From Pseudorhodobacter sp. E13 (GTDB lineage: Bacteria; Pseudomonadota; Alphaproteobacteria; Rhodobacterales; Rhodobacteraceae), in NCBI RefSeq assembly GCF_003991405.1, contig NZ_RPEN01000151.1, forward strand, positions 1-64,000: a stretch of 64,000 nucleotides of DNA, read 5' to 3'. A program made the translations under genes and the position numbers. This document shows, piece by piece, positions 4,228 to 31,570 of the stretch. How positions within the stretch are numbered: the first letter of the stretch is position 1; every line of letters begins with the position of its first letter. The notes below the pieces were generated by a model, which was given only the letters and a program-made list of their open reading frames with translations, made no database searches and was not told the origin of the DNA.

Positions 4228-4908
4228 TCACGCCTTTATCAAGACCTCGCGCCCGCTTATCGTGTAGGGGCCATCGCTGACCAATCGGGCGACGACGCGC
4301 GACAAGGTTTCGGGCCTGATGCCCAGCAAATCGGCAAGGTCGATGCGTGAGATTGGCAGCGTCATCCGCCTGCCCTCTGCGCTCTGCTCTCCATGGATCT
4401 GCATCAGGCGTTCCAGCAAGTCAGACAGCCTTTCGGTGTTGGACCGGGTTGCAGCGGCAATGATATGGGCGTGGCTGCGGTCGATTTCCTGAAGGCAGCG
4501 ATCTGCCAAGCGGCCAAGCAATTCGGGCGTGCGGTCCATGATCTGCCGGACCGTGTGGCGCGGCACCATGCAAACCCGCGACGGCACCAGCGCTTGCGCC
4601 TCTGTTTGATGGGGCTGCCCCGCCATGAAGGACCGAAAGCCAATAACCTCCCCCGGATAGGCAAGCCGCAACAGCGTCGACTTACCGTCACCTTGGCGGC
4701 TCCGAATACCGATCAAACCTTTGGATACGCAATAAATCCCGGAATTCTCTTCGCCCTGCTCAAACAATACTTGTCCGCTGGAAAGTGGCAATCGGTCAAA
4801 TCCGCGGGTGAGCATCGGCAAGGCAGCCCCGCTCACCGGTTGCCAAACACTTTGATCGCGGAAACCGCAGTTGCCACAGGGATGTTTCAGGTCGCTGTAA
4901 TCACGCAT
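4228..4908 (-). CDS. Crp/Fnr-family transcriptional regulator, FNR-like
   Basis: A 226-residue regulator with an N-terminal cyclic-nucleotide-binding-type barrel (about 40-130), a dimerisation helix (about 120-150) and a C-terminal winged helix. The recognition helix reads RPETLSRVVARL; the E-x-x-S-R pattern is that of FNR proteins reading TTGAT/TTGAC half-sites. Candidate iron-sulphur ligands are C11, C14 and C113. The position that holds the third N-terminal cysteine in E. coli FNR is a serine or valine here, so cluster binding is uncertain. I chose the ATG at 4908, with GGAAAGGG upstream, over a longer frame from 4968. It diverges from the P450 gene with an FNR-type box at 5010 between them. 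It is a plausible regulator of this block and of the ubiD-ubiV operon. Confidence 0.85.
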   Translation of the reverse strand: MRDYSDLKHPCGNCGFRDQSVWQPVSGAALPMLTRGFDRLPLSSGQVLFEQGEENSGIYCVSKGLIGIRSRQGDGKSTLLRLAYPGEVIGFRSFMAGQPHQTEAQALVPSRVCMVPRHTVRQIMDRTPELLGRLADRCLQEIDRSHAHIIAAATRSNTERLSDLLERLMQIHGEQSAEGRRMTLPISRIDLADLLGIRPETLSRVVARLVSDGPYTISGREVLIKA

Positions 4909-5009: not shown

Positions 5010-5023
5010 TTGACGACCGTCAA
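5010..5023. promoter_or_regulatory. FNR/NNR-type operator
   Basis: Perfect inverted repeat TTGAC-GACC-GTCAA with FNR-family spacing. It lies 67 bases before the P450 start and about 100 bases before the divergent regulator start, so it could serve either gene. The half-site TTGAC rather than TTGAT would suit a Dnr/Nnr-like or relaxed FNR protein. Confidence 0.7.
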
Positions 5024-5044: not shown

Positions 5045-5089
5045 TCATTCTTGCAAAACCCGCCCCCTAGCCGAAAAGCCAAGCGCCCG

Positions 5090-6520
5090 ATGCAAGACAA
5101 TGCCGCGACGTCATGCCCCTACCGCGTGTCGGCCTTACCGCCAAAACCCAAAGGGCGCGAAGGGCGCGTGGGCGTGCTGGCCTATTTCCGAATGTTCCGG
5201 CACGATATTCTGTCGGCGCAGCCCCGGCATTTGTTCCGCGCCTGGATGGCCGAAATGCGCACGCCGTTCTTTCGGTCATATCTGTGCAATGACCCTGCGT
5301 TGGTCGATCTGGTGCTGAAACAGCGCCCGCTGGATTTCCCGAAATCCGAACGCTTGCGGGTGGGGTTAAAACCCTTGCTGGGGGAGTCGATCTTTATCAG
5401 CAATGGCGCGCTTTGGGCACGGCAGCGCCGCATCATTGACCCCGCGTTTGAAGGCGGGCGCCTGCGCTTCATCTTTCCCGCGATGTGGGACAGTGCAACC
5501 GCCGCCGTTGCCCGGTTGCTGCCCGTGGCAGATGGCCGTGCGGTCGAGGTTGAGGCAATAGCCAGCCATCTGGCGATGGATGTCATTTTCCGCACCTTGT
5601 TTTCGGTGCCGATTGAAAATGAAATTGCGAGTGCCGCCTTTGCCGCCTTTCGCGCGCATCAGCAGGCGCAACCGCTTGCCAATATCGCCGCTGTTTTGCC
5701 ATTTCCGCGCTGGGTTCCGCGATTCCATTCGCGCAAGACCCGCCAGACCGCGCGCCTTATCCGCGATCTGATGGCGAAACTTGTGGGCCAGCGCGCGGCG
5801 CAGATTGCGACAGGCACCGCCCCAGATGATCTGGCGACCAAAATCATGACCACGCCCGATCCCGAAACCGGCAAGCGCTTCACCCGCGATGAAATGGTGG
5901 ATCAGGTGGCGATCTTCTTTCTGGCCGGGCATGAAACATCGGCGGCGGCACTGTCCTGGGCGCTCTATCTGCTGGCGCTGTATCCTGACTGGCAAGAGAG
6001 CGTGGCCGATGAGGCCCGCGCCGAGATTGACCCCGACCGCATCTATTTCTCCGCCCTTTCAAAGCTGCGCCAGTCCCGTGCGGTGTTTCGCGAAACCTTG
6101 CGGCTGTATCCGCCTGTGCCGATGTATGTGCGCGAGGCGGCCCGGCCCGAGGTATTTCGCGCCCGCCCAATTCGGCGCGGTGCGCAGGTCATCCTTAGCC
6201 CTTGGCATCTACATCGGCATGAACGGCTTTGGGCCAACCCGGATGGGTTTGACCCGACCCGCTTTGACACAGCCGAAGGCAAGCAAAGCCAACGCGATGC
6301 CTATATTCCGTTTTCAGCAGGGGCGCGGGTTTGTCCCGGCTCGGCCTTTGCAATGGCCGAGGGCACTTTGTTGCTGTCGATGCTGGTGCGCGCCTTCCGG
6401 TTTGAACCAGTCCCGGACCGCGTGCCCGTGCCGGTGGCACAGCTCACTCTGCGGGCCAAGGATGGCATTCATCTGAAACTGACCCCCCGCGTGCAACAGG
6501 AAAGACCGCATGACAGCTAA
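5090..6520 (+). CDS. Cytochrome P450
   Basis: Soluble bacterial cytochrome P450 of 476 residues. Heme-thiolate mono-oxygenases of this kind insert one oxygen atom into an organic substrate using electrons from a redoxin partner. Visible hallmarks are the I-helix AGHETS (about 278-283), the K-helix ETLR (about 335) and the heme loop FSAGARVCPG with the thiolate C415. No signal peptide or membrane anchor. The start at the ATG 5090 gives the expected length; an upstream TTG at 5051 would add 13 residues without homology. The 3' end overlaps the AlkB-like gene by 11 bases, so the two are co-translated. No ferredoxin or reductase gene is adjacent. The substrate cannot be inferred; a fatty acid, alkane or terpenoid is possible given the partner gene. 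Confidence 0.9.
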   Translation: MQDNAATSCPYRVSALPPKPKGREGRVGVLAYFRMFRHDILSAQPRHLFRAWMAEMRTPFFRSYLCNDPALVDLVLKQRPLDFPKSERLRVGLKPLLGESIFISNGALWARQRRIIDPAFEGGRLRFIFPAMWDSATAAVARLLPVADGRAVEVEAIASHLAMDVIFRTLFSVPIENEIASAAFAAFRAHQQAQPLANIAAVLPFPRWVPRFHSRKTRQTARLIRDLMAKLVGQRAAQIATGTAPDDLATKIMTTPDPETGKRFTRDEMVDQVAIFFLAGHETSAAALSWALYLLALYPDWQESVADEARAEIDPDRIYFSALSKLRQSRAVFRETLRLYPPVPMYVREAARPEVFRARPIRRGAQVILSPWHLHRHERLWANPDGFDPTRFDTAEGKQSQRDAYIPFSAGARVCPGSAFAMAEGTLLLSMLVRAFRFEPVPDRVPVPVAQLTLRAKDGIHLKLTPRVQQERPHDS

Positions 6521-7655
6521 TACCTCACCCCCCGCCCAGCCTTTGCGGGCCTGGCCCTATTGGATAACGATCACCTTTGTGCCGCTGGTCTATTTGGCGG
6601 TGACGCAGGGCGGTTGGGCCGTGCTGTTGATCCCGGCCTATGGTTGGGTGTTGATGCCGCTGCTCGATACTGTTCTGGGGCGCAATCTGCGCAACCCCGA
6701 CCCGAACACCCCCGAGGCGGCGCTCTTCTGGTTCCGCCTGCTGACATGGATATGGTTCCCGGTTCAGTTTGTTCTGGTGTTCGGCACGCTTTGGTATCTG
6801 ACCCGGATCGGCACCTATGGCGCGGCAGAGAACCTTGCGATCATGTTTGGCATCGGGGTGACAACCGGCACCGTGGGCATCGTTTATGCCCACGAACTGA
6901 TGCACAAACCGCAGAAGTTTGAACGCAATCTGGCCGATTTGCTGTTGGCTCCTGTGCTGTATGGCCATTTCCGCACCGAACATCTGCTGGTGCATCACCC
7001 CCATGTCGGCACACCGCGAGACACCGTGACGGCCCGCTATAACGAAGGGTTCTTGCACGCTTTTCTGCGGATTCTGGCAACCGGCCCTACGTCTGCGTGG
7101 CGGGCCGAGCGGGCAAAGCTGGCGCGGGCCGGGCGCAGCCCCTGGCATGGCTCCAACCCGATCTGGAAATATGCAGCACTGCAACTGGGGTTTCTGGCTT
7201 TGGCTTGGGCCATCGGTGGATGGCAGGCTGTTGGCCTGTTTGCGTTTCAGGCCTTTATCGCTGTCTGGCAGTTGGAGCTAACCAACTATGTTGAACATTA
7301 TGGCCTGACCCGCCGCCATCTGGGGGGCGGTGAATATGAGCCGGTGCAGCCGCATCATTCCTGGGATTCGGCGCATCGGGTTTCGGGGGCGCTGTTGAGC
7401 AACCTGCAACGCCATGCCGATCATCACCTGCACCCGATGCGGCGCTTTCCGCTGTTACAGATTTATGATGCGACGCAAGTGCCGCAACTGCCAACCAGCT
7501 ATCCGCCGATGACCGCGCTGGCGATGGTGCCTCCGCTGTGGCGGCGCATGTTCAACCCCAGGGTCCGTGCCTGGCGCAAGCAGTTCTACCCCGACATTAC
7601 CGATTGGGCAGCCTATAAAAACGCCACAAATCCTGCCCCCAAAGGTGCTGGCTAG
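6510..7655 (+). CDS. AlkB-type membrane alkane/fatty-acid mono-oxygenase
   Basis: Integral-membrane non-heme diiron hydroxylase of 381 residues. Enzymes of this family hydroxylate terminal methyl groups of alkanes or related chains with O2 and rubredoxin-delivered electrons. The histidine clusters are all present: HELMHK (about 128), EHLLVHH (about 157), and LQRHADHH (about 299), together with the AlkB signature NYVEHYGL. Several hydrophobic segments lie before residue 125 and around 230-255. It begins inside the end of the P450 gene and ends before a bidirectional hairpin at 7666. Pairing of two O2-dependent hydroxylases next to an anaerobic quinone operon is notable. True alkane specificity is not proven by motifs alone. 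Confidence 0.85.
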   Translation: MTANTSPPAQPLRAWPYWITITFVPLVYLAVTQGGWAVLLIPAYGWVLMPLLDTVLGRNLRNPDPNTPEAALFWFRLLTWIWFPVQFVLVFGTLWYLTRIGTYGAAENLAIMFGIGVTTGTVGIVYAHELMHKPQKFERNLADLLLAPVLYGHFRTEHLLVHHPHVGTPRDTVTARYNEGFLHAFLRILATGPTSAWRAERAKLARAGRSPWHGSNPIWKYAALQLGFLALAWAIGGWQAVGLFAFQAFIAVWQLELTNYVEHYGLTRRHLGGGEYEPVQPHHSWDSAHRVSGALLSNLQRHADHHLHPMRRFPLLQIYDATQVPQLPTSYPPMTALAMVPPLWRRMFNPRVRAWRKQFYPDITDWAAYKNATNPAPKGAG

Positions 7656-7701: not shown

Positions 7702-8604
7702 TCAGGCAACAACCGCCCCCGACCAATCGGCCCCGCGCGCGCCGCGCACAAACCCATCCGACAGGCGCGGCCTTGGGGTTTGTGCCGTCAGGGCGGCGGC
7801 CACTTCGGCCCCGGCAATCCGCCCATCCAGCAGATCGCGGAACAGCAGGCAAACCTGCCCGAAATCGCCCGTATGCGGCGACAGGCGCAGCGTTGTGACC
7901 CCTGCTTGCGCCAAGGCGTCGGCCTGCAATGCCATGCAGGCATAGGAGTCTGCCAAGGTTTGCACGCCGTTCATCGCCAGAAACGGCTGGCCTTCGCGGG
8001 TCGCGATTGACAGGCCATCGGGATCATCCTCGCAGGCGAATTGGCAGTTATCCTTGGGGCGCGCATGCAGGCGGGCGTGATAGCAGCGCCCCGAAATCGC
8101 CAGCGGCACGCGGCCATAGCCCCAGACCTCTATTTCCACCCCCAGTTCTCTCGCGGTGGCGGCCAAGGTGGCAATCGGGTCCAGCGGCAGTTCCGGCGGC
8201 AAACACAGCCGCACAGCCCCGCGCCCGGCAAGCCAGCGCAGGGTGCTTTCATTATACACATTGACCAAAGGCCCAACGCTAAACGGGGTGCCTGCCGGAA
8301 GATGCGCCAACGCTGTCAGGTCATTCACCTCGATCTCTACGCCCATTTCGGCCAGCTCTGCCGTCATCTTGCGTTCGCGCTTCAGCGTGACCAGCGCCAG
8401 ACTGCTAAGCGCGACCGTCTTGCCCGCCGCTTGCAGCACCGCGAGCGCGTCGGCAATCCGGTCCTGATAGAATGGCATGCGTTTGGAACACACCATCTCG
8501 CCCAGGCTGACGTGATCCACCGGGGCCTTGGCAACCCCGTCATAAAACGCAGCCCAGGCATCGGCTTTCCAAAAGAACTGGTTGGGGCCAACGGTCAGTT
8601 TCAT
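7702..8604 (-). CDS. ubiV: Anaerobic ubiquinone hydroxylation protein UbiV
   Basis: U32-peptidase-family protein of 300 residues. With UbiU it forms the O2-independent hydroxylase complex of ubiquinone synthesis and carries a [4Fe-4S] cluster. The N-terminus MKLTVGPNQFFW is characteristic. Candidate ligands are C39, C174, C187 and C191, matching the known pattern of one early cysteine plus a late cluster. The start at 8604 is supported by GGAGGTG six bases upstream; the open frame runs further but without homology. It lies 4 bases after ubiU and is the last gene of the seven-gene operon read from ubiD. It is not a protease in this setting. Confidence 0.9.
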   Translation of the reverse strand: MKLTVGPNQFFWKADAWAAFYDGVAKAPVDHVSLGEMVCSKRMPFYQDRIADALAVLQAAGKTVALSSLALVTLKRERKMTAELAEMGVEIEVNDLTALAHLPAGTPFSVGPLVNVYNESTLRWLAGRGAVRLCLPPELPLDPIATLAATARELGVEIEVWGYGRVPLAISGRCYHARLHARPKDNCQFACEDDPDGLSIATREGQPFLAMNGVQTLADSYACMALQADALAQAGVTTLRLSPHTGDFGQVCLLFRDLLDGRIAGAEVAAALTAQTPRPRLSDGFVRGARGADWSGAVVA

Positions 8605-8608
8605 AGGT

Positions 8609-9586
8609 TCACCTCCATGTTTTCTTGTAGGCACCGGTGGTGCTGGCCTGTCCCTCCGACAACCGCGCCAAAAGTCCCGCAGGCATCGGGCGCCCGGCGG
8701 CAAGGGCATCAACGGCGGCGCGGAAATTCTGCACCACCTGTGCCACATAAGAGGCAGAGCGTTGCCGCCCCTCAATCTTCAGCGCCGTCACCCCGGCTTT
8801 TTGCAGTTGCGGGATAAGCTGTTCGGCGTTCAGGCTGACCGGGTCTTCGAACAAATAGCCGCTTTGATCGCCTGCGGTAAAACAGCCCTTGCACAGGGTT
8901 GGATAGGGCGCGGGCTCCCCCTTTGCGGCGCTGTGGATCAGATAGCCACCCAGACGCGCCTTCAACTCTCCGGCTTCCTCGCGGTAATCGACATGGCTGG
9001 GAGGCGAACAGACGCCGTACATATTGGGCGATTTTCCGGTGGCATAGGACGACAGCGAACACCGCCCCTCGGCCATGACACACAGGCCGCCGAACACGAA
9101 CACCTCTGTCTCCACCTTGGTTTCGGCATTGATCGCGGCGATTTCGGGCACCGAAAGCACCCGCGGTAAAACCACCCGTTTGACCCCAAATGTCGCAGCG
9201 TAAAAGTTGATCATATCGGCATTGGCCGCAGCCGCCTGCACCGACAGGTGCCGCCGCAGGCCGGGGTGCTTTTGGGCGGCATGGTCCAGCAAGCCCAGAT
9301 CGGCCAGAATCACCGCATCGGCCTCCAAGGTGGCGGCGTCTGAAATGGCGCTGTGCCAGATGGCTTCGGCGCCTGCACGGGGAAAGGTGTTAATGGCGAT
9401 CAGCACTTTTGCACCGTGCCGATGGGCAAAGGCGATGCCGTCCCGCATTTCCGCCCGGTCAAAATTCAGGCCCGGAAAGTTGCGCGCATTGGTTTCATCG
9501 GCAAAGCCGCAATAGATCGTATGCGCCCCGGCCTTGACCGCGGCCCGCAAAGACGCGGGGGTTCCCGCTGGGCAAACAATTTCCAT
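8609..9586 (-). CDS. ubiU: Anaerobic ubiquinone hydroxylation protein UbiU
   Basis: U32-family protein of 325 residues, partner of UbiV in O2-independent ubiquinone hydroxylation, where prephenate rather than O2 supplies the hydroxyl groups in the studied systems. Iron-sulphur ligand candidates are C169, C176, C193 and C232, within GGLCVMAEGRC, GVCSP and YPTLCKGC. As I recall, these positions coincide with those known for the E. coli protein. The N-terminal MEIVCPAGTP is typical. The start at 9586 overlaps the ubiT stop (ATGA), indicating translational coupling; an upstream frame start at 9622 is unlikely. Confidence 0.92.
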   Translation of the reverse strand: MEIVCPAGTPASLRAAVKAGAHTIYCGFADETNARNFPGLNFDRAEMRDGIAFAHRHGAKVLIAINTFPRAGAEAIWHSAISDAATLEADAVILADLGLLDHAAQKHPGLRRHLSVQAAAANADMINFYAATFGVKRVVLPRVLSVPEIAAINAETKVETEVFVFGGLCVMAEGRCSLSSYATGKSPNMYGVCSPPSHVDYREEAGELKARLGGYLIHSAAKGEPAPYPTLCKGCFTAGDQSGYLFEDPVSLNAEQLIPQLQKAGVTALKIEGRQRSASYVAQVVQNFRAAVDALAAGRPMPAGLLARLSEGQASTTGAYKKTWR

Positions 9587-10128
9587 CAGATCCACTCTCC
9601 TTGGTCTGGCCGGGTCAGGCACAACCCTGTGCGGGCCTGCGCCACGGAAATGGCCTGCCCCATCACCCCTGCAAAGGGGCCGGACAGCGCTTGCAGCTCT
9701 GCCCCGATGTCCAACTCGGCATCATCAATTGCATTGCGCAGCGCCAGCGCCGCCTCTGTATTGCCTTCGATCACCAGATCGCGCGAAAAGAACAGCGCAT
9801 CGCCGTCAAAGGCCCCATGCACCAGCCCCAGCAAGGCCGCCAAGGGCCCGGCGATTTTGGTATCGCCCTGTTGTGCGCGGCGATGCAGGGCGACTTGCGG
9901 CTTGGCAGCATCTGGCAGCAGGCAGATCACGAAAGGCAGATCGGTCGGGTCCAAGACGAAACGCGCGGTTGAATAGGGGCCAAGCCTGCGAAACAGCGAG
10001 GGGTGCCGCGCCGCCACGCTGCGGGTCAGGGCCGTCAGCGCGGCCGAAAGCAGCGGCAGGGGCAAAGGGCGCAGGGCAATGGCCAAAAGCGGCGGGGCTG
10101 TTCTGATCGCCAAAGGCGCGGGCTGCAT
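9586..10128 (-). CDS. ubiT: SCP2-domain ubiquinone accessory protein UbiT
   Basis: An SCP2 (sterol-carrier-like) lipid-binding domain protein of 180 residues. UbiT supports anaerobic ubiquinone synthesis, probably by holding the hydrophobic intermediates for UbiU/UbiV. The first 40 residues are proline- and leucine-rich, followed by an SCP2-like region with LFFSRDLVIEGNTEAALALRN typical of this family's ligand pocket edge. Start at the ATG 10128 with AAGGA upstream; a longer frame exists but overlaps nothing conserved. Directly upstream of and overlapping ubiU; about 68 bases after nnrS. Confidence 0.85.
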   Translation of the reverse strand: MQPAPLAIRTAPPLLAIALRPLPLPLLSAALTALTRSVAARHPSLFRRLGPYSTARFVLDPTDLPFVICLLPDAAKPQVALHRRAQQGDTKIAGPLAALLGLVHGAFDGDALFFSRDLVIEGNTEAALALRNAIDDAELDIGAELQALSGPFAGVMGQAISVAQARTGLCLTRPDQGEWI

Positions 10129-10195
10129 GGGGTGTCCTTTGCTCGGGTCTTGCGCCCCGTCTAGCAAAGCCGAAGCCGAAAGGAATTGACGCCCG

Positions 10196-11353
10196 TCAAG
10201 CCGATAGCCGCTTAGCCCCCAGAACCGGGTGCGGCGATGGCTGCGCCAAACCGCGCAGTAGCGGCAGAAGGTAGCAGGCCCAACCAAGGCTCCACGCCAT
10301 AACCGACCAGTGCAGCCCCGTCAGCCCCATTGCCTCGGCGGTGGGGAACGCCAATCGCAACACCGCCGCGATTGAGATCAGTGCGATTGCGGCAGCATGG
10401 GCAGGGCTGGCAAGCAGCCGCCCCGGCGCGCGGGTCATGAAGGCGCGGGCGGTGACAGCCATGATCATGGCACCCATCGCACCCAGGGTCAGACCATGCA
10501 GCATCGTCGCTGGTGTGCCAGCATCCCCCAACCACAGCGCACGCCCCAGCAGCAACAATCCAAGGACAAGCCAACCCCAGGCCAGATAGAGCATCAACAG
10601 GTCAAACTGGGCGATCACGCCCCAGCGCGCCCAGACCATCATGCGCAGACCTTGCAATGCCCCAGCCAACAGCAACGCAGCCCCCGCCAGATCAGCCCGC
10701 TGCGCGATCACCGCGCCAAGTGACAGGGCAATGGCCCCGCTGGCCAGCACCCCGATGGCACGCAATTGCAACACCGGTTGGCCGCCCGCCGCAAAGCGGC
10801 TGTTGAAAAACGCGGGCAATGCACGCCCGCCAACCACGGATAGCAGCAGGGCAAAGCCCAGAACCAGCGCCAGCCCGATGGGGTGACCATTCCCGCCTTG
10901 TGTTGCCAACCAGACCACATCTGCCACGGCCAAAGCCACAGGCACCGCAGCCAAAGGCAGTTTGCGCCAAACGCGCGCGCGCCACAGCGGCGGCAGCATC
11001 AGCGCGGCCAATCCCAGCGGGTAAAGCACAACGCTGCCCCATAGACCCAACCCTTGCGCGCCCGACAGTATCGCGGCACGTCCAAGGCCCCAAGCCAAAA
11101 GCAAAAGGGCCAGTGACGGATACCCGATCCGGTGGCGATGGTTCGGCCCCGTCCAGCTTGGCAAGGCGATCAGCAAATAGCCGCCCAGCGCCGCGACTGC
11201 CACGCCAAAGATCAGCTCATGCGCGTGCCAAAAGGCAGGGTCCGGCACCAACTCCGGCCAGATCCAGACCCAAGGCACGAGCATTGCCCAGACCCCCATA
11301 GCCAAGAACAACGGCTTATGGGCGGCGGCGGGCCTAGGCGCTTTGCGGTTCAA
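10196..11353 (-). CDS. nnrS: NnrS-family membrane protein
   Basis: Polytopic NnrS protein of about 385 residues, with roughly twelve hydrophobic segments. NnrS is a heme- and copper-containing membrane protein found with denitrification and NO-stress genes; it protects against nitrosative damage. The diagnostic FWHAHELIFGVAVAALGGYL follows the first membrane helix and supplies conserved histidines. The start is uncertain: a TTG at 11353 (overlapping the ric 3' end by 20 bases) keeps the whole first helix, while an ATG at 11299 gives a shorter version. It sits in the middle of the ubiD-ubiV operon, between ric and ubiT. Confidence 0.85.
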   Translation of the reverse strand: MNRKAPRPAAAHKPLFLAMGVWAMLVPWVWIWPELVPDPAFWHAHELIFGVAVAALGGYLLIALPSWTGPNHRHRIGYPSLALLLLAWGLGRAAILSGAQGLGLWGSVVLYPLGLAALMLPPLWRARVWRKLPLAAVPVALAVADVVWLATQGGNGHPIGLALVLGFALLLSVVGGRALPAFFNSRFAAGGQPVLQLRAIGVLASGAIALSLGAVIAQRADLAGAALLLAGALQGLRMMVWARWGVIAQFDLLMLYLAWGWLVLGLLLLGRALWLGDAGTPATMLHGLTLGAMGAMIMAVTARAFMTRAPGRLLASPAHAAAIALISIAAVLRLAFPTAEAMGLTGLHWSVMAWSLGWACYLLPLLRGLAQPSPHPVLGAKRLSA

Positions 11354-12005
11354 AGCGCGGGAACAACACAGTTTCCTCCAGATGGATATGCGCAACAAGA
11401 TCATCCCCCAATTTGCGCAGGCCGGTATACAGCGCGGTCCACGACCCACAGGCCTCTTCGGGCAGGGTCAATCCATGGCTGGCATGTTCAATCCCGCGCA
11501 ACAGGTCGGTGGCGGCGTGATGATCGTCGCGCATCACCGCCAGTGGTGCAGCCAATGCGGCGGTATTACCAGCCCGCATCAAGGGGAACAGGACACGCTC
11601 TTCCTTCATCATATGGCTGTCCAACTCATCATGCAGGGCAATCAGCGCCGCCGTTAGCCCCAACGGGGCCTCCTCGTGGTCGCCATGCACGGTTTCAACC
11701 CTTTGGGCCAAGGGGATCAGGCTTTCCAGCTCGCGGCGATGGGTTTCGTGATAGCGATCCAACACATGGTCGATCAGCGCCAAAGTCTCGGTCGGGGCGT
11801 CGCGGTTCGCGGCCTCTTGCAGCGCGAAAAGCTGCGCCAGCACAGCGTCGGGGTCCAGCCCTTGCGCCTTTGCCGCCTCGGCCAAGGGCAGTTTGCCGCC
11901 ACAACAAAAGCTGATACCGGCTTGGCGGAACAGTTCGGCCGCTCCGGGCATTTCGGCGGCAATATCGCGAACTTGGGTGTCCAAGGTCATAGTCATCATG
12001 GTCAT
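11334..12005 (-). CDS. ric: Iron-sulphur cluster repair di-iron protein (Ric/YtfE/DnrN)
   Basis: A 223-residue protein that restores iron-sulphur clusters damaged by NO or peroxide. It has an N-terminal ScdA_N domain with DIAAEMPGAAELFRQAGISF followed by the paired cysteines CCGG, then a hemerythrin-like four-helix domain. Diiron ligand candidates include H and E in ETHRRELESLI, HDELDSHMMKEE, DDHHAATDLL and HIHLEETVLF. Its start overlaps the ubiX stop (ATGA). With NnrS it places an NO-repair function inside the quinone operon, which fits the iron-sulphur dependence of UbiU and UbiV. Confidence 0.92.
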   Translation of the reverse strand: MTMMTMTLDTQVRDIAAEMPGAAELFRQAGISFCCGGKLPLAEAAKAQGLDPDAVLAQLFALQEAANRDAPTETLALIDHVLDRYHETHRRELESLIPLAQRVETVHGDHEEAPLGLTAALIALHDELDSHMMKEERVLFPLMRAGNTAALAAPLAVMRDDHHAATDLLRGIEHASHGLTLPEEACGSWTALYTGLRKLGDDLVAHIHLEETVLFPRFEPQSA

Positions 12006-12577
12006 TCTCCGATCGAAGAGGCCCAGGCCTTGGCTTGGGGCGGGGCAAGGTGCAACAGATCGACCGCACGCGCGGCAATCTGGGTGGTGATCTCTTGGGT
12101 GGTTTGCGGGCGCAGATAGAAGGCAGGCACCGGGGGCAGGATGATGCCCCCCATTTCCGTCACCGCCGTCATGTTGCGTAGATGTGCCAGCGTCAGCGGT
12201 GCCTCGCGTGCCAGCAAAACCAGCGGGCGGCGTTCTTTTAGCTGCACGCCTGCGGCGCGGGTCAGAAGATTGTCATCCAGCCCAGTGGCAATGGCGGCAA
12301 GGCTGCGCATGGAACAAGGGGCCACAATCATCCCCGCCACAGGGTAAGAGCCTGATGCAATGGTCGCGCCAAGATCGGTGACGGCGTAGACATTCTCGAC
12401 CAATGCCACCAGATCGGCCTGCGCCCCGGGCCCGATTTCCAGCGTCAGGGTGCGTTCGGCCATGGGCGACAGCACCAGATCAACAGCAACACCCGCATCG
12501 CGCAGAACCCGCGCCGCCGCCAGCGCCAAGGCCGCACCTGACGCCCCCGAAACGCCCAAGATCACCCGCTTCGTCAT
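12002..12577 (-). CDS. ubiX: Flavin prenyltransferase UbiX
   Basis: UbiX, 191 residues, makes the prenylated FMN cofactor needed by UbiD from FMN and dimethylallyl phosphate. The flavoprotein signature is clear: the N-terminal loop ILGVSGASGAALALA binds FMN phosphate, and the segment VAGMIVAPCSMRSLAAIATG is the second family motif. Length and start are standard. It overlaps ubiD by 4 bases upstream and ric by 4 bases downstream, so UbiX is made together with its client UbiD. Confidence 0.95.
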   Translation of the reverse strand: MTKRVILGVSGASGAALALAAARVLRDAGVAVDLVLSPMAERTLTLEIGPGAQADLVALVENVYAVTDLGATIASGSYPVAGMIVAPCSMRSLAAIATGLDDNLLTRAAGVQLKERRPLVLLAREAPLTLAHLRNMTAVTEMGGIILPPVPAFYLRPQTTQEITTQIAARAVDLLHLAPPQAKAWASSIGE

Positions 12578-14082
12578 CGCGCACCCCCCGGATGCCGCGC
12601 CATGATTTCGGCAGCTCGCGCCTCATGCGCCGGGTCAAGGGCCATCACCCGCCCCCATTCGCGGCTGGTTTCCGACCCGATCTTGTTGGTGGCATCAATG
12701 CCCAGCTTGCCCGCCAACCCATCACGCGGGCTGGAGAAATCCAGATAGTCCATCGGGGTGTTTTCCAGAACCATGACATCGCGCGACGGGTCCATCCGCG
12801 TGGCCATGGCCCAGACCACACCGTCCCAATCGCGCGGGTTGATGTCTTCATCCACCACGATAATGGTCTTGGTATAGGAAAACTGCGCCAACATTCCCCA
12901 AAGCGCCATCATTACGCGCCGCGCCTGCCCCGGATAACGCTTGGCAATCTGCACAACGGCCATCCGGTAGGAACAGGCGACAGGCGGCAACCACAGATCG
13001 CGGATTTCGGGGATTTGCGCGCGGATCACCGGCAGGGCCAGCGTGTTGAACACCTCGCCAATTACCGAAGGTTCATCCGGGGGGCGGCCCGTGACCGTGC
13101 TCAGATACAAAGGATCGCGGCGATGGGTGATTGCGGAGATCCGCATCACAGGGAAGTTTTCGACCGTGTTGTAATAGCCGGTATGGTCGCCAAACGGGCC
13201 TTCGGGGGCGGTGTCACCGGGATGCACCCAACCCTCGATCATAATCTCGGCATGGGCAGGCACCAGCAGCGGCACGCTGCGGGCGGCCACAAGCTGGGTG
13301 CGCGCCCCCCGCAACACGCCGGAAAACGCCAGTTCTGAAACGGATTCCGGCAAGGGCAGCGCTGCGGCCAGCAAGGTGGCCGGGTCTGCGCCAAGGGCAA
13401 TGGCAACCGGCATCGGCGCGCTCGCTTGTGCCCAGCTGCGGGCGTGGGCTGCGCCGCCGCGATGCGCCAACCACCGCAGGATCAACCTGTCCAGCCCGAT
13501 CACCTGCGCGCGGTAAACGCCCAGGTTATACTGCGCCACGGCATCGGGTGCCGAACCATAGGGCCGCGTGATAACAACCGGCCAGGTAATCAACGGGCCT
13601 GCATCTTCTGGCCAAGGGGTTTGCACTGGGATGCGGCCCATGTCGATGGGAGCCGCCACCTCTTGCACCGGGGCATGGCGCAAGCGTCTTGGCCGTGTCG
13701 CCAAGGCCGCCTTCAGCATCGGCCAGCGCGACAAGGCGTCGCGCATACCGTCCACCGGGGGCGGGCTGCGCAAGGCGGCAAGGAAGCCGCCAAAGGCCGG
13801 CACCTGATCCAGTGTCAGCCCAAGCCCGGCCGCAACCCGATCAGCCGTGCCGAACAGATTGCCGATCACGGGCATCAAAGGCCCTTCGCCCGGCCCGGCC
13901 ACAGCGGCATCAAAGCGCAAAACCGGCCCATTGGCACGCAAAGAGGCCAATTGCAGCGCGGTCATTTCATGTTTCAGGCTGATCTTGTCGGGCAGGCACA
14001 GCACATCCCCCCGCTCGGAGGCCCAGGCCAGAAAGGCGCGCAGGTCAAGAAAGGCGGGCAGTGTCCGAATTTTGGGCCTCAT
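12574..14082 (-). CDS. ubiD: UbiD-family decarboxylase (3-octaprenyl-4-hydroxybenzoate carboxy-lyase)
   Basis: Prenylated-FMN-dependent decarboxylase of 502 residues that removes the carboxyl group of the polyprenyl-4-hydroxybenzoate ring during ubiquinone synthesis. Family motifs: GRPPDEPSVIGEVFN in the middle and IIVVDEDINPRDWDGVVWA, followed by NTPMDYLDFSSP and a late LGIDATNK. It is the first gene of the seven-gene operon. An FNR-type box lies 43 bases upstream of its start. UbiD enzymes also act on other aromatic acids, but the UbiX/UbiT/UbiU/UbiV context points to quinone synthesis. Confidence 0.92.
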   Translation of the reverse strand: MRPKIRTLPAFLDLRAFLAWASERGDVLCLPDKISLKHEMTALQLASLRANGPVLRFDAAVAGPGEGPLMPVIGNLFGTADRVAAGLGLTLDQVPAFGGFLAALRSPPPVDGMRDALSRWPMLKAALATRPRRLRHAPVQEVAAPIDMGRIPVQTPWPEDAGPLITWPVVITRPYGSAPDAVAQYNLGVYRAQVIGLDRLILRWLAHRGGAAHARSWAQASAPMPVAIALGADPATLLAAALPLPESVSELAFSGVLRGARTQLVAARSVPLLVPAHAEIMIEGWVHPGDTAPEGPFGDHTGYYNTVENFPVMRISAITHRRDPLYLSTVTGRPPDEPSVIGEVFNTLALPVIRAQIPEIRDLWLPPVACSYRMAVVQIAKRYPGQARRVMMALWGMLAQFSYTKTIIVVDEDINPRDWDGVVWAMATRMDPSRDVMVLENTPMDYLDFSSPRDGLAGKLGIDATNKIGSETSREWGRVMALDPAHEARAAEIMARHPGGAR

Positions 14083-14124
14083 GGATTAATACCGTTCTGC
14101 TATCAGCCTTGAAACGCAATGGAT

Positions 14125-14138
14125 TTGACGAAAATCAA
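14125..14138. promoter_or_regulatory. FNR-type operator before ubiD
   Basis: TTGAC-GAAA-ATCAA, an FNR-family box with standard 4-base spacing, 43 bases upstream of the ubiD ATG. It would make the whole ubiD-ubiX-ric-nnrS-ubiT-ubiU-ubiV operon respond to oxygen limitation or NO, matching its content. The nearest candidate regulator is the FNR-like gene at 4228-4908. Confidence 0.75.
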
Positions 14139-14745: not shown

Positions 14746-15144
14746 ATGACGAACCCATGCCAAAACACCGCGACCGCAAAAATTATCACAGACCGCATCC
14801 GCGACCTGTCACATCGCAAAACACAGGCAGAGATTGCATCCGAGGCGGGTTTCGCCAACGCCAACATGATGACCTTCCTCAAGAACGGAAAGAACAAGGT
14901 GCCACTGGACCGTGTTCCGTCCTTGGCCAAAGCTTTGGAGGTGGACCCCGCATACCTGATGCGCCTTGCTCTTGACCAATCCGTCGGTGCGACGGCTGCG
15001 AAAGCAATCACCGACATTTTCGGCACGCCTGCAACCGAAAATGAACGCGGTTGGCTGGATGAACTGCGTGATGCATCAGACAACACCGACCCCCGCCTTA
15101 CGGCTCGGTCGCGCGCTGCACTTAGAGGGATTTTCAACAAATGA
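14746..15144 (+). CDS. XRE-type helix-turn-helix regulator
   Basis: A 132-residue protein with an N-terminal lambda-repressor-like helix-turn-helix: KTQAEIASEAGFANANMMTF forms helices 2-3, and LDRVPSLAKALEVDPAYLM is the typical following helix pair. The C-terminal 40 residues (TENERGWLDELRDAS...DPRLT) form a separate small domain that reappears in the next gene. The downstream gene starts at its stop (ATGA), so both are one transcript. Probably a repressor controlling this small island; the direct target is not known. Confidence 0.8.
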   Translation: MTNPCQNTATAKIITDRIRDLSHRKTQAEIASEAGFANANMMTFLKNGKNKVPLDRVPSLAKALEVDPAYLMRLALDQSVGATAAKAITDIFGTPATENERGWLDELRDASDNTDPRLTARSRAALRGIFNK

Positions 15145-15329
15145 GCGAACCCATTTTCGCTTTACCCACGGCCCCAGCGGGACCATGGGACCAACTGACC
15201 GAAAACGAGAAGGCTTGGATTGAGTTCATCCGAGTCATCAGTGGCGGTCGTGACCCGCGCATTACACCCAAACGCGTTAAGGCACTTAGAGAGATGCTGG
15301 ACCCTGTGGTTTCATCGGATCAAAAATAG
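15141..15329 (+). CDS. Small protein repeating the repressor's C-terminal domain
   Basis: A 62-residue protein translationally coupled to the XRE gene. Its core TENEKAWIEFIRVISGG, then DPRITPKRVKALREML, lines up with the last 36 residues of the upstream repressor (TENERGWLDELRDASDN, then DPRLTARSRAALRGIF), with identities at T-E-N-E, W, R, S, D-P-R, T and A-L-R. It has no DNA-binding helix of its own. It may bind the repressor, for example as an anti-repressor or hetero-oligomer partner. This role is inference. Confidence 0.65.
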   Translation: MSEPIFALPTAPAGPWDQLTENEKAWIEFIRVISGGRDPRITPKRVKALREMLDPVVSSDQK

Positions 15330-15433
15330 GGAACCAATGTTTAGTTCCTGAGGACCGGGGAATATGGAATTGCTATCTTTTTCCCTCGGAAGGGACGTCG
15401 GCAAGATGGCAGAAACGCAAGGTATGGACACGG

Positions 15434-15467
15434 GCTTGCCACACAATATATTTTTTGTGTGGCAAGC
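15434..15467. promoter_or_regulatory. 13-bp perfect inverted repeat upstream of the nucleotidyltransferase gene
   Basis: GCTTGCCACACAA, an 8-base A/T-rich spacer, then TTGTGTGGCAAGC. The core CCACAC/GTGTGG recurs in the next palindrome 48 bases on. It could be a hairpin terminator for the upstream pair or, given the repeated core, an operator. Confidence 0.55.
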
Positions 15468-15484
15468 GCAGTTCTTATAGGCTA

Positions 15485-15512
15485 TACCACACGAAAGATA
15501 CTTTGTGTGGTA
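15485..15512. promoter_or_regulatory. Second inverted repeat, adjoining the nucleotidyltransferase start
   Basis: TACCACAC, then AAAG-ATA-CTTT, then GTGTGGTA, ending 4 bases before the ATG at 15517. It shares the CCACAC/GTGTGG arms with the repeat at 15434. In RNA it would hide the ribosome binding region, so translational control is possible as well as protein binding. Confidence 0.5.
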
Positions 15513-15516
15513 AGCC

Positions 15517-16548
15517 ATGCCTCAAGCCTCAATTAAACATCATACGCTCACCGGGCAATCCGCTTGGCAGGACCTGTTGCGTCTTCTGAAAGAGACTGCG
15601 ATCTCTGACATCCGAGGCAAACCTACGCTGCGCCAACGCGACAACCGAGGATACTGGTATGACCGCTATCGTCTCGGAGATCAGATCATCGAGCGGTATA
15701 TTGGTGAGGACAATGACGACCTGCGCCATCGCCTTGAACGTCACGAAACCTTGCAGTCCAGCGCACGCGACCAAAAATCAGAGGCTGCACGTCTCATCCG
15801 CCTGATGCGCAGCGAGGGTTATTTAACACCGGACCTCGCGACCGGCCAGATTCTCATGGCAATGTCGCGAGCAGGCGTCTTTAGGCTTGGTGGAACCGTC
15901 GTCGGGACGCAGGCATTTCGGCAATATGAAGGTGTTCTCGGAGTGCGCATTGGCGCAGATCAGGCAGCGCAGACAAATGACATCGACATTGCAAGTTTCG
16001 AACGCTTATCACTTGCGCTCCAAGATCAGGTAGACCCCGCCCTGGCCGATGTTTTCAAAAGCCTGGATTTCTCGGCAGCGCCGTCCCTTGACCAGCGTAG
16101 AGTTTGGCGCTGGCGGCAGACCCACCGCCAAACTATGGTGGAATTCTTGACACCATCTTTCAAGGATGACGAAGGCCTGCGTGACTTGCCTGCACTCGGC
16201 GTTTCCGCCCAGTCGCTCCACTTTCTAAACTACCTGATAGCAGAGCCACTGACGGTGCCACTTCTCTATCGGGACGGCGCCTTGATACAAATACCACGTC
16301 CGGAACGTTATGCGATCCACAAGCTAATAGTATCAGAACGGCGCAGGAAAGGCGATGACGGCCTGAAAGCTCGCAAAGATCGGGCGCAAGCTGGATTCCT
16401 CATAAATGTGCTGAGTGAAGAGGACCCCTACGCCCTTGCCGAGGCCTATCAAACGGCGATCTCAAAGGGAGCGGCATGGCGCGAAGCGATCGAACGCGCG
16501 TTAAGCAAACTTCCAGACACCGCAGGAAAACTTCAAGCCCTTCCCTGA
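15517..16548 (+). CDS. GSU2403-family nucleotidyltransferase-fold protein
   Basis: A 343-residue protein with a central polymerase-beta-type nucleotidyltransferase fold. The GG motif region is RLGGTVVGTQAF (about 123-134), and the paired acidic residues are in NDIDIA (D155, D157). The N-terminal part (about 40-110) is a helix-rich extension, and the C-terminal half resembles the family's conserved region with RPERYAIHKLIVSERR. Such proteins are scattered on genomic islands and resemble toxin or defence nucleotidyltransferases, but their substrate is generally unknown. It follows two matched palindromes and sits beside an XRE repressor, a layout seen in toxin-antitoxin-like modules. No partner antitoxin of known type is visible. 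Confidence 0.75.
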   Translation: MPQASIKHHTLTGQSAWQDLLRLLKETAISDIRGKPTLRQRDNRGYWYDRYRLGDQIIERYIGEDNDDLRHRLERHETLQSSARDQKSEAARLIRLMRSEGYLTPDLATGQILMAMSRAGVFRLGGTVVGTQAFRQYEGVLGVRIGADQAAQTNDIDIASFERLSLALQDQVDPALADVFKSLDFSAAPSLDQRRVWRWRQTHRQTMVEFLTPSFKDDEGLRDLPALGVSAQSLHFLNYLIAEPLTVPLLYRDGALIQIPRPERYAIHKLIVSERRRKGDDGLKARKDRAQAGFLINVLSEEDPYALAEAYQTAISKGAAWREAIERALSKLPDTAGKLQALP

Positions 16549-26105: not shown

Positions 26106-27326
26106 TTAGCCTCCAAAATCATCATTGTGGATTGATTGCGGTTCCACCCCCAGCTTTGCAAGCATGTGGAGCACGGCGGAAATCATCACCGGTGGGCCAC
26201 ACAGATAATACTCGCAATCCTCTGGGGCGGGGTGTTTTAAAAGCGCGGCGCGCACCGTGTCGTGGACAAATCCGGTGGCCCCTTGCCAACGATCGCCCGG
26301 CGCGGGGTCAGACAGGGTGGGTGTCCAGTCAAAATTCGGGTGGGCGGCGGCAATCGCCTCGAACTCTTCGACATAGAACAGATCGGCCGCCGAGCGCGCG
26401 CCATAGAAATAGCGCATCCGCCGGGGCGTGCCCTGCCCGATCTGTTCATGGATCATCGCGCGCAGCGGGGCCATGCCAACACCGCCGCCGATAAAGATCA
26501 TCTCACGCTCTGTCGGCTGAACATGGAAATCACCGAAGGGGCCAGAGGCTTCGACCGTTTCACCGGGTTTCAGCGCAAACAGCCATGATGAGACAACACC
26601 CGGCGGCAGGTCCCGTTCTTGCCCTGCGGGGGGCACTGCCAGCCGGATGTTGAACACCGCATGCCCCACATCCTCGGGCCGGTTGGCAATGGAATAGGCG
26701 CGGGTAACACTTTCGGCCGAGACGGAGCGCATTTGCGGCCAGTCGGCCAGCATCCAGATATCCCGGAACGCGGGTTCCACGTCGATCTGGTGGAAACCGA
26801 GGTCATGAGGCGGCGCGGTCAGTTGCAAAAACCCACCGGCGCGGAAATCGAAGGGCTGTTCTGCGGGCAGTTTCAGCACCAGTTCGCGGATCAGCGGGGC
26901 CAATTGCCGATTGGACAGCACGGTGCAGGTAAATCCGGTGCTGCCCAGCAAGGCCTGCGGCACCGTGACAGCGCAGGGGCCACGCAGGGCCGCCTGACAG
27001 GCCAGCCGCACATGTGCCTTGCGTTCGGCCGCTGACAGGATGCCTTTTTCGGTGGCTTGCGCCTCGCCCGCGCCATCGCCTTCAACCACCACGCGGCACA
27101 GCCCGCAGGTGCCCGACCCGCCACAAGCGGCAGGGATGCCAATGCCCGCGCCATGCAGCACGCCCAGCAATCGGTCCCCCCTTGCGGCCTGAATGGTATG
27201 GGTTCCGTTGACCGTTACGGTCATCGCCTCGGCAGGGATCAGCCTGCGGCGTGTGACCAGCAGCGCCAAGGTCAGTGCGACCAGCAGCACAACGATGATA
27301 AGCGCACCCAGCAGGATCTCGGTCAT
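26106..27326 (-). CDS. nqrF: Na+-translocating NADH:quinone reductase subunit F
   Basis: The NADH-oxidising subunit, 406 residues. A single N-terminal membrane helix is followed by a [2Fe-2S] ferredoxin domain with [14 protein letters not shown] and a fourth cysteine in VRLACQ. Then come a ferredoxin-reductase FAD domain with [11 protein letters not shown], and a C-terminal NADH domain with [15 protein letters not shown] and [11 protein letters not shown]. Electrons enter here from NADH and pass to the membrane subunits. The start overlaps the nqrE stop. Confidence 0.95.
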
Positions 27327-27934
27327 GATGCTACCATCTGCGCAAAGGCGGAAAAGCCGAGCGACATCATGCCCGCCAGTATGAAGGTGATCCCAAGACC
27401 CCGCAGGCCCTGTGGCAGGTCAGCATAGGCCAGCCGCGCCCGGATAGCCCCCAGCATGACCACCGCCACGGCAAAACCAAAGCCCGCGCCAAGGCCAAAG
27501 ACTGTGGATTGCGCTAGGCTGTAATTGCGTTCCACCATGAACAGGCTGCCGCCCAGAATGGCGCATTGCACGGTCAGCAGCGGCAAAAACACCCCGAATG
27601 AGGCATAGATCGCCGGAAAGAACCGGTCCAGCACCATTTCCAACAGTTGCACGGTGGCGGCAATGACACCGATAAACGCGATAAGTTTCAGATAGGACAG
27701 GTCAGTTTCGGGCAGGCCAGCCCAAGCCCATGCGCCGGGGGTCAGCAGCGCGGTATAGATCAGGTGGTTCAGCGGCACGGTCACGCCCATGACTGCGATC
27801 ATGGCGATGCCAAGCCCCAGCGCCGATGCGGTTTTCCGCGACAGCGCGATGAAGGTGCACAGCCCAAGGAAGAAGGTCAGCGGCATATTCTCGACAAAGG
27901 CCGCGCGCAGAAAAAGGGACCAAAGCTCGGTCAT
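27323..27934 (-). CDS. nqrE: Na+-translocating NADH:quinone reductase subunit E
   Basis: A 203-residue six-helix membrane subunit, homologous to NqrD in inverted topology. The paired cysteines [11 protein letters not shown] (about 26) and [12 protein letters not shown] (about 115) are the ligands that, with those of NqrD, hold the intramembrane iron-sulphur centre. It overlaps both nqrD and nqrF by 4 bases. Confidence 0.95.
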
Positions 27935-28596
27935 GCCGCATTCTCCGGGTCATCGGGGCGCAGATAGTCCAGCGCCTCTGCCTGGTCCGGCAAGATGCTG
28001 CGGATCGCCCAGACCAGCCCCCCCAACAGGAAAAAGGCCGAAGGGGCCAGTAGCATCAGGTTCAGCGGCGTATACCAGCCCCCCTGATCGACCGTTGCAA
28101 ACACTTGCCAACCCAGCAGCGACCCCGCCCCGAACAGCTCCCGTATCGCGCCGATCACGGTCAGCACCAGTGAATAGCCCAACCCATTGCCAAGCGCATC
28201 GACCATCGCGCGCAAGGGCGGGTTATGCCGCGAATAGGATTCGGTGCGCCCCAGCACAAGGCAGTTCGTCGTGATCAGGCTGACAAAAACCGACAGCCGC
28301 TGGCTGATCTCAAACAGATAGGCCTGCAAAAGCTGATCGATCACAATCACCAACGAGGCGACGATCACGATCTGAACGATCAGCCGGATCGAGTCCGGGA
28401 TATGCCGCCGGATCAGGCTGATCACCCCGGCGGAAAGCACCACAACGGCCGTCAGCGCCCCGGACATGGTCAGCGCGGTGGCCACCGATGTTGTCACCGC
28501 CAGCGCCGAACAGATCCCAAGGATCTGGAGCGTCACCGGGTTTTGCCGGATCAACGGTTCGGTCAGGATCCCCCAAAGACCTGTGCGTGCGCTCAT
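27931..28596 (-). CDS. nqrD: Na+-translocating NADH:quinone reductase subunit D
   Basis: A 221-residue six-helix membrane subunit. The metal-site cysteines are in [13 protein letters not shown] (about 29) and [11 protein letters not shown] (about 112), equivalent to those of characterised Nqr complexes. Rnf subunit E/A proteins are related, but the full nqrA-F order identifies this as Nqr. It begins 3 bases after the nqrC stop. Confidence 0.95.
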
Positions 28597-28599
28597 GGC

Positions 28600-31440: not shown

Positions 31441-31570
31441 ATCTTCTCCGTTGGTCTGCATCTTGTTTCCCGCACCACCCTGCCCGCGCAAGCGATTGCG
31501 GAAATCACCCAGAAATGATACCAAGAAATTGCGCGAACGTATAGCCAAGACAGCTAAGGAGCGACAAAAG

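Follow-up and report, generated by a model that had tools for sequence, protein, structure and literature searches.

A probably rearranged, oxygen-independent ubiquinone gene module with two candidate FNR-type promoters in Pseudorhodobacter sp. E13

FNR-type control of ubiD and of ubiTUV, genes of oxygen-independent ubiquinone synthesis, is already known. A survey across Pseudomonadota reports FNR sites for 1362 of 1566 ubiTUV sets (PMC11707229), and in Rhodobacter sphaeroides an FnrL site is placed between RSP0466-4 and RSP0467-8, with both gene groups marked as activated (PMC2908626). In Rhodobacter capsulatus, ubiDX and ubiUV mutants are described as unable to grow anaerobically and as growing like the wild type with O2 (PMC10626278), and ubiD has a listed FnrL recognition sequence (PMC4634722). 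Here we describe a variant of this arrangement, a tandem form that has two boxes and encloses ric and nnrS, from a 64,000-nt stretch of Pseudorhodobacter sp. E13 DNA (the window; contig NZ_RPEN01000151.1, 140.5 kb in all, of assembly GCF_003991405.1, which holds 3.88 Mb in 159 contigs with completeness rated 100%). The sequence makes it likely that the seven genes form a rearranged version of the Rhodobacterales oxygen-independent ubiquinone module, split into two blocks that would each have a class-II FNR-type promoter of their own.

The genes occupy the minus strand from 14082 to 7702 in the order ubiD-ubiX-ric-nnrS-ubiT-ubiU-ubiV (Table 1), exactly as a preliminary description of this DNA had read them; Pfam names all seven families and NCBIfam six, NnrS having no NCBIfam model. 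UbiT, UbiU and UbiV exceed the cut-offs of their NCBIfam equivalogs, all at this one locus (73.0 bits against 46.9, 504.3 against 440 and 353.7 against 275, respectively). All four UbiU cysteines sit at the published cluster-ligand positions and all four in UbiV keep the published spacing CXnCX12CX3C, as in Escherichia coli (PMC6747719), in line with the earlier statement that these proteins depend on iron-sulphur (Fe-S) clusters. UbiX, too, scores above its NCBIfam cut-off. UbiD scores 430 bits with TIGR00148 (cut-off 244.85) and 533.5 bits with the E. coli-type equivalog NF008175, under its cut-off of 788, and the position of its gene beside ubiTUV is that seen in Rhodobacter. Ric combines ScdA_N and hemerythrin domains in Pfam and passes TIGR03652 (219.3 bits over 204.7), while reaching 237.5 bits with the YtfE model NF008221, under the cut-off of 254. 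NnrS scores 184.1 bits with the Pfam NnrS model, for which the gathering score is 28, and its start would be the TTG at 11353. Most junctions are tight: ubiD/ubiX and ubiX/ric overlap by 4 nt, both as ATGA, ric/nnrS by 20 nt if the TTG start is used, and ubiT/ubiU by 1 nt, and ubiU and ubiV are 4 nt apart. The sole sizeable gap, 67 nt, separates nnrS from ubiT (the other junctions range from -20 to +4). These identities support an oxygen-independent ubiquinone module that is physically joined to genes of Fe-S repair and the nitric oxide (NO) response. The suggestion that the operon is nearly self-contained fails, because the published oxygen-independent pathway also needs UbiA, UbiE and UbiG, and the cluster encodes none of these three; Pfam, run on 20 of the 48 open reading frames kept in the window, named no additional ubiquinone-synthesis gene.

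Table 1. Features of the ubiquinone cluster and its surroundings (window coordinates; prFMN, prenylated flavin mononucleotide).
Feature	Coordinates	Strand	Evidence or remarks
Box 1, TTGATTTTCGTCAA	14125..14138	-	Centre 49.5 nt before ubiD ATG; -10-like element TAGCAG 22 nt after
Box 2, TTGACGGGCGTCAA	10186..10199	-	Overlaps the stop codon of nnrS and lies 64.5 nt before ubiT; TAGACG 22 nt after
Box 3, FNR-type	5010..5023	undefined	Upstream of the Crp/Fnr-like regulator gene
ubiD, prFMN-dependent decarboxylase	12574..14082	-	Pfam, NCBIfam; sole UbiD match in own genome
ubiX, flavin prenyltransferase	12002..12577	-	Pfam, NCBIfam
ric (ytfE/scdA/dnrN family), di-iron Fe-S repair protein	11334..12005	-	Pfam, NCBIfam; sole ScdA_N match in own genome
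nnrS, divergent ubi-linked clade	10196..11353	-	Pfam, tree; sole NnrS match in own genome
ubiT, SCP2-domain accessory factor	9586..10128	-	Pfam, NCBIfam
ubiU, [4Fe-4S] oxygen-independent hydroxylase subunit	8609..9586	-	Cys169, 176, 193, 232; NCBIfam
ubiV, [4Fe-4S] hydroxylase subunit	7702..8604	-	Cys39, 174, 187, 191; NCBIfam
Crp/Fnr-family regulator	4228..4908	-	Pfam, NCBIfam; neighbours ubiTUV in several relatives

The strict FNR-type box motif, TTGAYNNNNRTCAA, occurs three times in the window (14125, 10186 and 5010) against 0.11 expected, a count that none of 100 shuffles reached, and four times in the entire contig. The box upstream of ubiD is the one that the preliminary description had pointed out; the second lies at the end of nnrS, just before ubiT. 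In a class-II FNR promoter the box is centred at -41.5, i.e. the -10 element follows 22 nt after the box, and this pattern, as spacing only, is present at both candidate promoters in the three tandem genomes described below and in 59 relatives. On this basis transcription would start near 14090 for ubiD and near 10151 for ubiT, the latter with a leader of 23 nt. Box positions of -40.5 and -41.5 were also found in work on Fnr of Sphingopyxis, and the nos-cluster box of the same E13 genome has the TA spacing as well, with 22 nt to a TAGAAG element.

Both boxes recur within the genus. ubiU is present in four of the nine Pseudorhodobacter genomes searched for it, and three of these (the window's own, G150 and G151, the last taken as P. 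ferrugineus) combine the tandem order with both boxes. The fourth (G154) also has a box before ubiT, but its contig ends shortly beyond that point. A TA follows 23-24 nt after each of the two boxes in all three tandem genomes, in which 13 of 14 columns of the ubiT box and the next 7 of 7 are kept, against 19 of 42 in the nnrS sequence before it and 23 of 50 in the leader after it. Identity to the window NnrS protein is 59% in G150 and 64% in P. ferrugineus.

Outside these genomes a different layout prevails, and the comparison of gene order in relatives returns mostly divergent loci. We examined the 80 best loci among those listed by a genome scan with UbiU (the named loci, a sample thus chosen by UbiU). 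In 73 of them ubiD diverges from ubiT (at five of these the sequence gives no ubiX hit), in one, that of P. ferrugineus, the two are in tandem, and in six there is no ubiD in the stretch, three of these lying near a contig end. In a separate sample of 149 genomes of the family, all 12 loci at which ubiD can be seen (L002-L013) have the divergent layout as well. Exactly one strict box is found at 59 of the 73 divergent loci, two boxes at one and none at 13. At the 59 one-box loci the TA at 23-24 nt is conserved in both directions (98%/100% on the ubiD side, 92%/93% on the ubiT side), and because the spacing is present on both sides, the single box of the relatives most likely serves two class-II promoters. 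Some divergent loci already carry the additional genes of the window: ric lies directly behind ubiX in L077, L082, L083, L086, L101, L109 and G010, and is followed by nnrS in L077, L082, L083 and G010; in L086 the two genes are 1.3 kb apart. The tandem form is likely to descend from a divergent one of this kind, and inversion of its ubiD-ubiX-ric-nnrS block would yield the order seen in the window.

Linkage of the ubiquinone genes to ric and nnrS, which the preliminary description had read from this one locus, is found again in other lineages. Within 4 kb of the 80 named loci, nnrS is present at 31 (23 on the ubiV side, 7 on the ubiX side and 1 in tandem) and ric at 9. A close UbiU (E below 1e-100) occurs in 31 of the 149 family genomes, 14 with the window type and 17 with a second type. 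The window type has UbiD beside ubiU on the same contig in 13 of 14 cases, whereas 16 of the 17 second-type genomes give no UbiD match. No obvious UbiD replacement was seen in the nine second-type neighbourhoods compared (L162, L164-L168, L170, L171 and L173); the question of anaerobic decarboxylation has been raised likewise for Rhodovulum and Rhodomicrobium (PMC10626278). In the family sample, NnrS is within ~5 kb of ubiU in nine genomes and ric adjoins ubiD/ubiX in three (G000, G010 and G013). At the G013 locus (L158:7587-10238) both ubiD and ric are split over two frames, whereas ubiX is intact and an FNR box is present, in a genome with no UbiU match; it is either a decaying remnant or the product of sequencing errors. 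At five of the nine second-type loci (L164-L168), ubiTUV and nnrS are accompanied by genes for an Rrf2 regulator and a DUF2478 protein, to which L165-L168 add a Ric-like hemerythrin (families checked on L164, L165 and L168, the others assigned by blastp grouping); the Rrf2 regulators of L164, L165 and L168 score best to NsrR, below cut-off. Because the association of ubi genes with ric and nnrS has arisen in more than one form, a functional tie is favoured over chance. In E. coli, anaerobic ubiquinone is reported to depend on ISC (PMC10470549), which fits a role for Fe-S upkeep, and Ric and NnrS would probably act by protecting the cluster-bearing steps.

The NnrS protein of the window belongs, by its sequence, to a divergent clade concentrated at ubi loci. 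We built a tree of 75 NnrS rows, with strands chosen by hidden Markov model and linked or unlinked labels assigned by hand; 11 of the initial 86 rows were dropped, ten because their gene was already represented (L155, L157, L159, L160, L162, L164, L165, L167, L168 and L137) and one as short (L065). A clade of 33 rows has support of 100/99, and 29 of its members lie beside ubi genes, as do 10 of the 42 rows outside it; L138, L139 and L094 are long branches inside the clade, and their placement is unsure. Since the named loci had been chosen by UbiU, the 149-genome sample was used as an additional test. Of its 92 NnrS copies, 41 were placed on the tree and the other 51 were counted as outside the clade, although 6 of these 51 score below 300 bits and could belong inside. 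Of the nine clade copies, eight come from genomes that encode UbiU, as 31 of the 149 do (p ~1e-5), and five lie beside ubiU, compared with 4 of the 83 other copies (p ~3e-4). Six histidines are invariant in 28 canonical NnrS rows (35, 37, 141, 248, 278 and 300, numbered by the L142 row). The window NnrS keeps three of them (35, 37 and 278) and has Leu at 141, Tyr at 248 and Arg at 300. Among nine ubiX-side rows, His35, His278 and Arg300 are found in all, His37 and Leu141 in 89% and His248 in 44%. The earlier assignment of this NnrS to guarding against NO is not supported for a member of a divergent clade that lacks some of the canonical histidines.

An AlphaFold2 model of the window NnrS (predicted local distance difference test, pLDDT, 89.9) has cbb3 CcoN as its best PDB match (E 1.9e-4; template-modelling (TM) score 0.62; root-mean-square deviation (rmsd) 7.2). 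cNOR and qNOR are matched too, all three with probability 1.00, although only CcoN has an E below 0.001; among the 50 matches listed, none outside the oxidase/reductase superfamily exceeds a probability of 0.18. A canonical NnrS model (pLDDT 93.2) likewise matches CcoN first (TM 0.69, rmsd 5.6) and then qNOR, the best unrelated match among those listed having a probability of 0.51. At the sequence level, hhalign of NnrS against the genome's own CcoN gives a probability of 0.2% (one sequence only), and there is no PDB sequence match at E 1. The HxH of the second transmembrane helix (TM2) and the His of TM10 presumably lie on helices equivalent to those carrying haem b in the haem-copper oxidase/NO reductase superfamily. 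The models suggest that NnrS could be a one-haem, NO-binding and possibly quinol-linked protein.

The preliminary description had supposed that the cell keeps ubiquinone synthesis running while denitrifying, which the gene content of the E13 genome does not support. NirS has no match in this genome, and NirK and NarG have matches only far below cut-off. Its COX1-family proteins are one aa3 oxidase (CtaD) and one cbb3 oxidase (CcoN, 783.8 bits over 583.15); the Pfam family PF00115 would catch NorB too. Of four molybdopterin proteins, one passes the cut-off as a formate dehydrogenase, one is a NuoG-like piece that scores below it and two pass no model; none qualifies by its score as NapA, DmsA or TorA. 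NosZ is present (TIGR04244, 1121.9 bits over 625), with a NosR-like protein at 800.2 bits, under the cut-off of 1000; both genes lie in L185:10199-14861. Given this content and the completeness of the assembly, the organism does not look like a denitrifier; it is apparently a non-denitrifying nitrous oxide (N2O) reducer at most. Its NosZ is of the TAT (twin-arginine translocation) type, clade I, in a genome without detected nirS, nirK or narG. A search of the genome for a photosynthetic reaction centre was negative, so phototrophy does not account for a need for anaerobic ubiquinone. Ubiquinone made anaerobically would probably serve the cbb3 oxidase when O2 is low, and the reduction of N2O; NO, if relevant, would have mainly external sources. 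Another candidate user of ubiquinone is encoded at 26106-31548 of the window, by NQR-type genes (NADH:quinone reductase family).

Several observations weigh against a two-promoter module guarded by Ric and NnrS. Terminator prediction finds no site inside the 67-nt nnrS-ubiT gap. Box 3 and the cco box pair lack the TA spacing towards the regulator or ccoN, and the box sequence does not discriminate FnrL from Dnr-type regulators; work from 2010 predicted NnrS, the U32 protein and the lipid carrier as DNR targets (PMC2908626). Of the 13 divergent loci without a strict box, eight have the looser TTG-N8-CAA and five have neither form, although one of these five (L047) rests on a failed start estimate. 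For R. capsulatus, ubiD is reported to show no FnrL-dependent change in expression (PMC4634722) and is described as expressed and functional whether or not O2 is present (PMC10626278). An inversion that leaves a box on each side needs a second, unexplained step. As regards protection, ric is rare, being missing from 143 of the 149 family genomes and present in 6; YtfE has been called an NO-generating nitrite reductase, the opposite of a protective protein (PMC9052748); and Sphingopyxis ytfE seemed to respond to nitrosative damage rather than to Fnr.

These points bear on three alternatives. The locus had been described as one tightly packed operon behind one FNR box, and the ATGA overlaps and short gaps within the blocks agree with that description, but the second conserved box, its promoter spacing and the gap at nnrS-ubiT do not. 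A single transcript from box 1 could span all seven genes, leaving the box at 10186 idle; the genes share a strand, and because the gap has no predicted terminator, read-through may add to the second promoter and one long transcript may form. Minus-strand terminator candidates fall inside nnrS (10830-10812 and 10585-10571) and ubiX (12506-12492), against a background of 14 candidates in the region for 9.2 expected from shuffling, and allow read-through as well as an internal stop. Nevertheless, the conservation of box 2 and its -10 spacing in three genomes while the flanking nnrS diverges speaks against an idle internal box, and in relatives ubiTUV begins beside its own box, so that a single transcript with an idle second box is improbable. 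Ric and NnrS might instead be passengers, anaerobic genes that share FNR-type regulation but are functionally unconnected to ubiquinone synthesis. The rarity of ric fits this explanation, as do the varied positions of nnrS (farther than 4 kb away at 49 of the 80 named loci) and the presence of both gene classes in FNR/Dnr regulons (PMC2908626); however, a Ric-like hemerythrin and nnrS recur beside ubiTUV in the second UbiU lineage and the NnrS clade is concentrated at ubi loci, and we consider this explanation possible but unlikely.

The remaining alternative concerns NnrS itself. The ubi-linked form may have left NO defence to serve the quinone pathway, for example as a haem/quinol protein that feeds electrons to UbiUV or protects them. 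The well-supported clade beside ubi genes, the missing canonical histidines, its standing as the sole NnrS of a genome without detected nir or nar genes and a predicted fold like that of quinol-using NO reductases all argue for such a role, whereas 4 of the 33 rows of the clade are unlinked and 10 of the 42 rows outside it do lie beside ubi genes; we regard it as doubtful. Equally speculative is a more specific proposal, that NnrS is a minimal relative of the cbb3 oxidase and qNOR catalytic subunits with one haem, probably between the TM2 HxH and the TM10 His, and that the clade has specialised as a partner of the anaerobic ubiquinone pathway. Ubiquinol from the same gene cluster would then drive the removal of NO, or of another ligand, and so keep it from the UbiU/UbiV clusters, in an N2O respirer without nitrite and NO reductases of its own.

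For the two-block module that we favour, we infer the following course, from regulator binding and transcripts to the roles of Ric and NnrS. In the usual layout ubiX-ubiD and ubiT-ubiU-ubiV diverge from a single FNR-type box that they share. In this genus ric and nnrS had joined the ubiD-ubiX block before, probably, the whole block was inverted, which would bring both blocks into the same direction. As O2 falls, an FnrL- or Dnr-type regulator would bind both boxes, and both blocks would be transcribed from their own class-II FNR-type promoters. UbiX and UbiD would decarboxylate the prenylated ring, and UbiT, UbiU and UbiV would hydroxylate it without O2, replacing the aerobic enzymes. Ric may supply or repair iron for the [4Fe-4S] clusters of UbiU and UbiV, and at the membrane the NnrS-type protein probably reduces the level of NO or of a similar ligand. 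The ubiquinone formed would then support low-O2 respiration through the cbb3 oxidase and N2O respiration through NosZ, with NO arriving mostly from neighbours and not from denitrification by the cell itself.

The regulator at 4228-4908 has Cys11, 14, 60, 113 and 138, with a Ser in place of the third cluster cysteine of FNR, and scores 62.1 bits to FnrL (cut-off 300). Between ubiV and this gene, window positions 5051-7655 hold a cytochrome P450 gene and a fatty-acid-desaturase-family gene (AlkB-like by eye), and in P. ferrugineus (L031) only ~260 nt separate ubiV from the regulator. Box 3 is kept at the same place in P. ferrugineus, and in G150 there is neither a strict nor a loose box before the regulator, its box (L154:12267) lying past the regulator gene. 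Upstream of ubiD, positions 14746-16548 contain a small open reading frame and an NTP_transf_8 nucleotidyltransferase gene; their third-position G+C (0.62 and 0.56) is below that of the cluster genes (0.70-0.75), and this pair was perhaps acquired.

The locus appears to be a case in which a bidirectional anaerobic promoter was turned into two tandem ones that kept its spacing. Genes for Fe-S repair and NnrS are thereby linked to the anaerobic ubiquinone pathway in two lineages of UbiU, and some members of the NnrS family may act together with quinone synthesis and not with denitrification by the same cell. In the literature searched on ubiU with nnrS, on nnrS with ubiD in Rhodobacter, on ubiU/ubiV with Fe-S repair, on Pseudorhodobacter nosZ and on NnrS with haem-copper oxidases, neither the tandem form nor the NnrS fold was found described. 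Among the closest known systems is that of R. sphaeroides, where RSP0464-0466 (U32 protein and lipid carrier, corresponding to ubiUV and ubiT) and RSP0467-0468 (ubiD) flank an FnrL site (PMC2908626). Its box, TTGATGTAGGTCAA, has the same letters as in L169. Unlike the window, R. sphaeroides has the divergent form with one shared box, and the 18 kb of L169 give no ric or nnrS hit. In E. coli, ubiT stands opposite ubiUV, unlike in the window, and ubiD is presumably located elsewhere. The E. coli genes are described as two divergent Fnr-controlled operons, and UbiUVT are reported to work from anoxic conditions to 0.1% O2 (PMC10470549). In R. capsulatus, a phototroph, ubiD-X and ubiU-V are reported as needed anaerobically only, UbiN replacing UbiD with O2, and linkage to ric or nnrS goes unmentioned in the available text of that account (PMC10626278). 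Hyphomicrobium denitrificans resembles the window in having clustered ubiXDTUV, which are described as co-regulated with denitrification and near an NO reductase cluster; unlike E13 it is a true denitrifier with NO reductase neighbours, and the control studied there is that of sHdrR/SoxR (PMC12423496). Finally, the single bidirectional Fnr/Dnr site between nirS and nosR2 of Dinoroseobacter shibae, reported as experimentally shown (PMC5398030), resembles the shared box of the window's relatives, although it serves other genes and the window has two tandem boxes instead.

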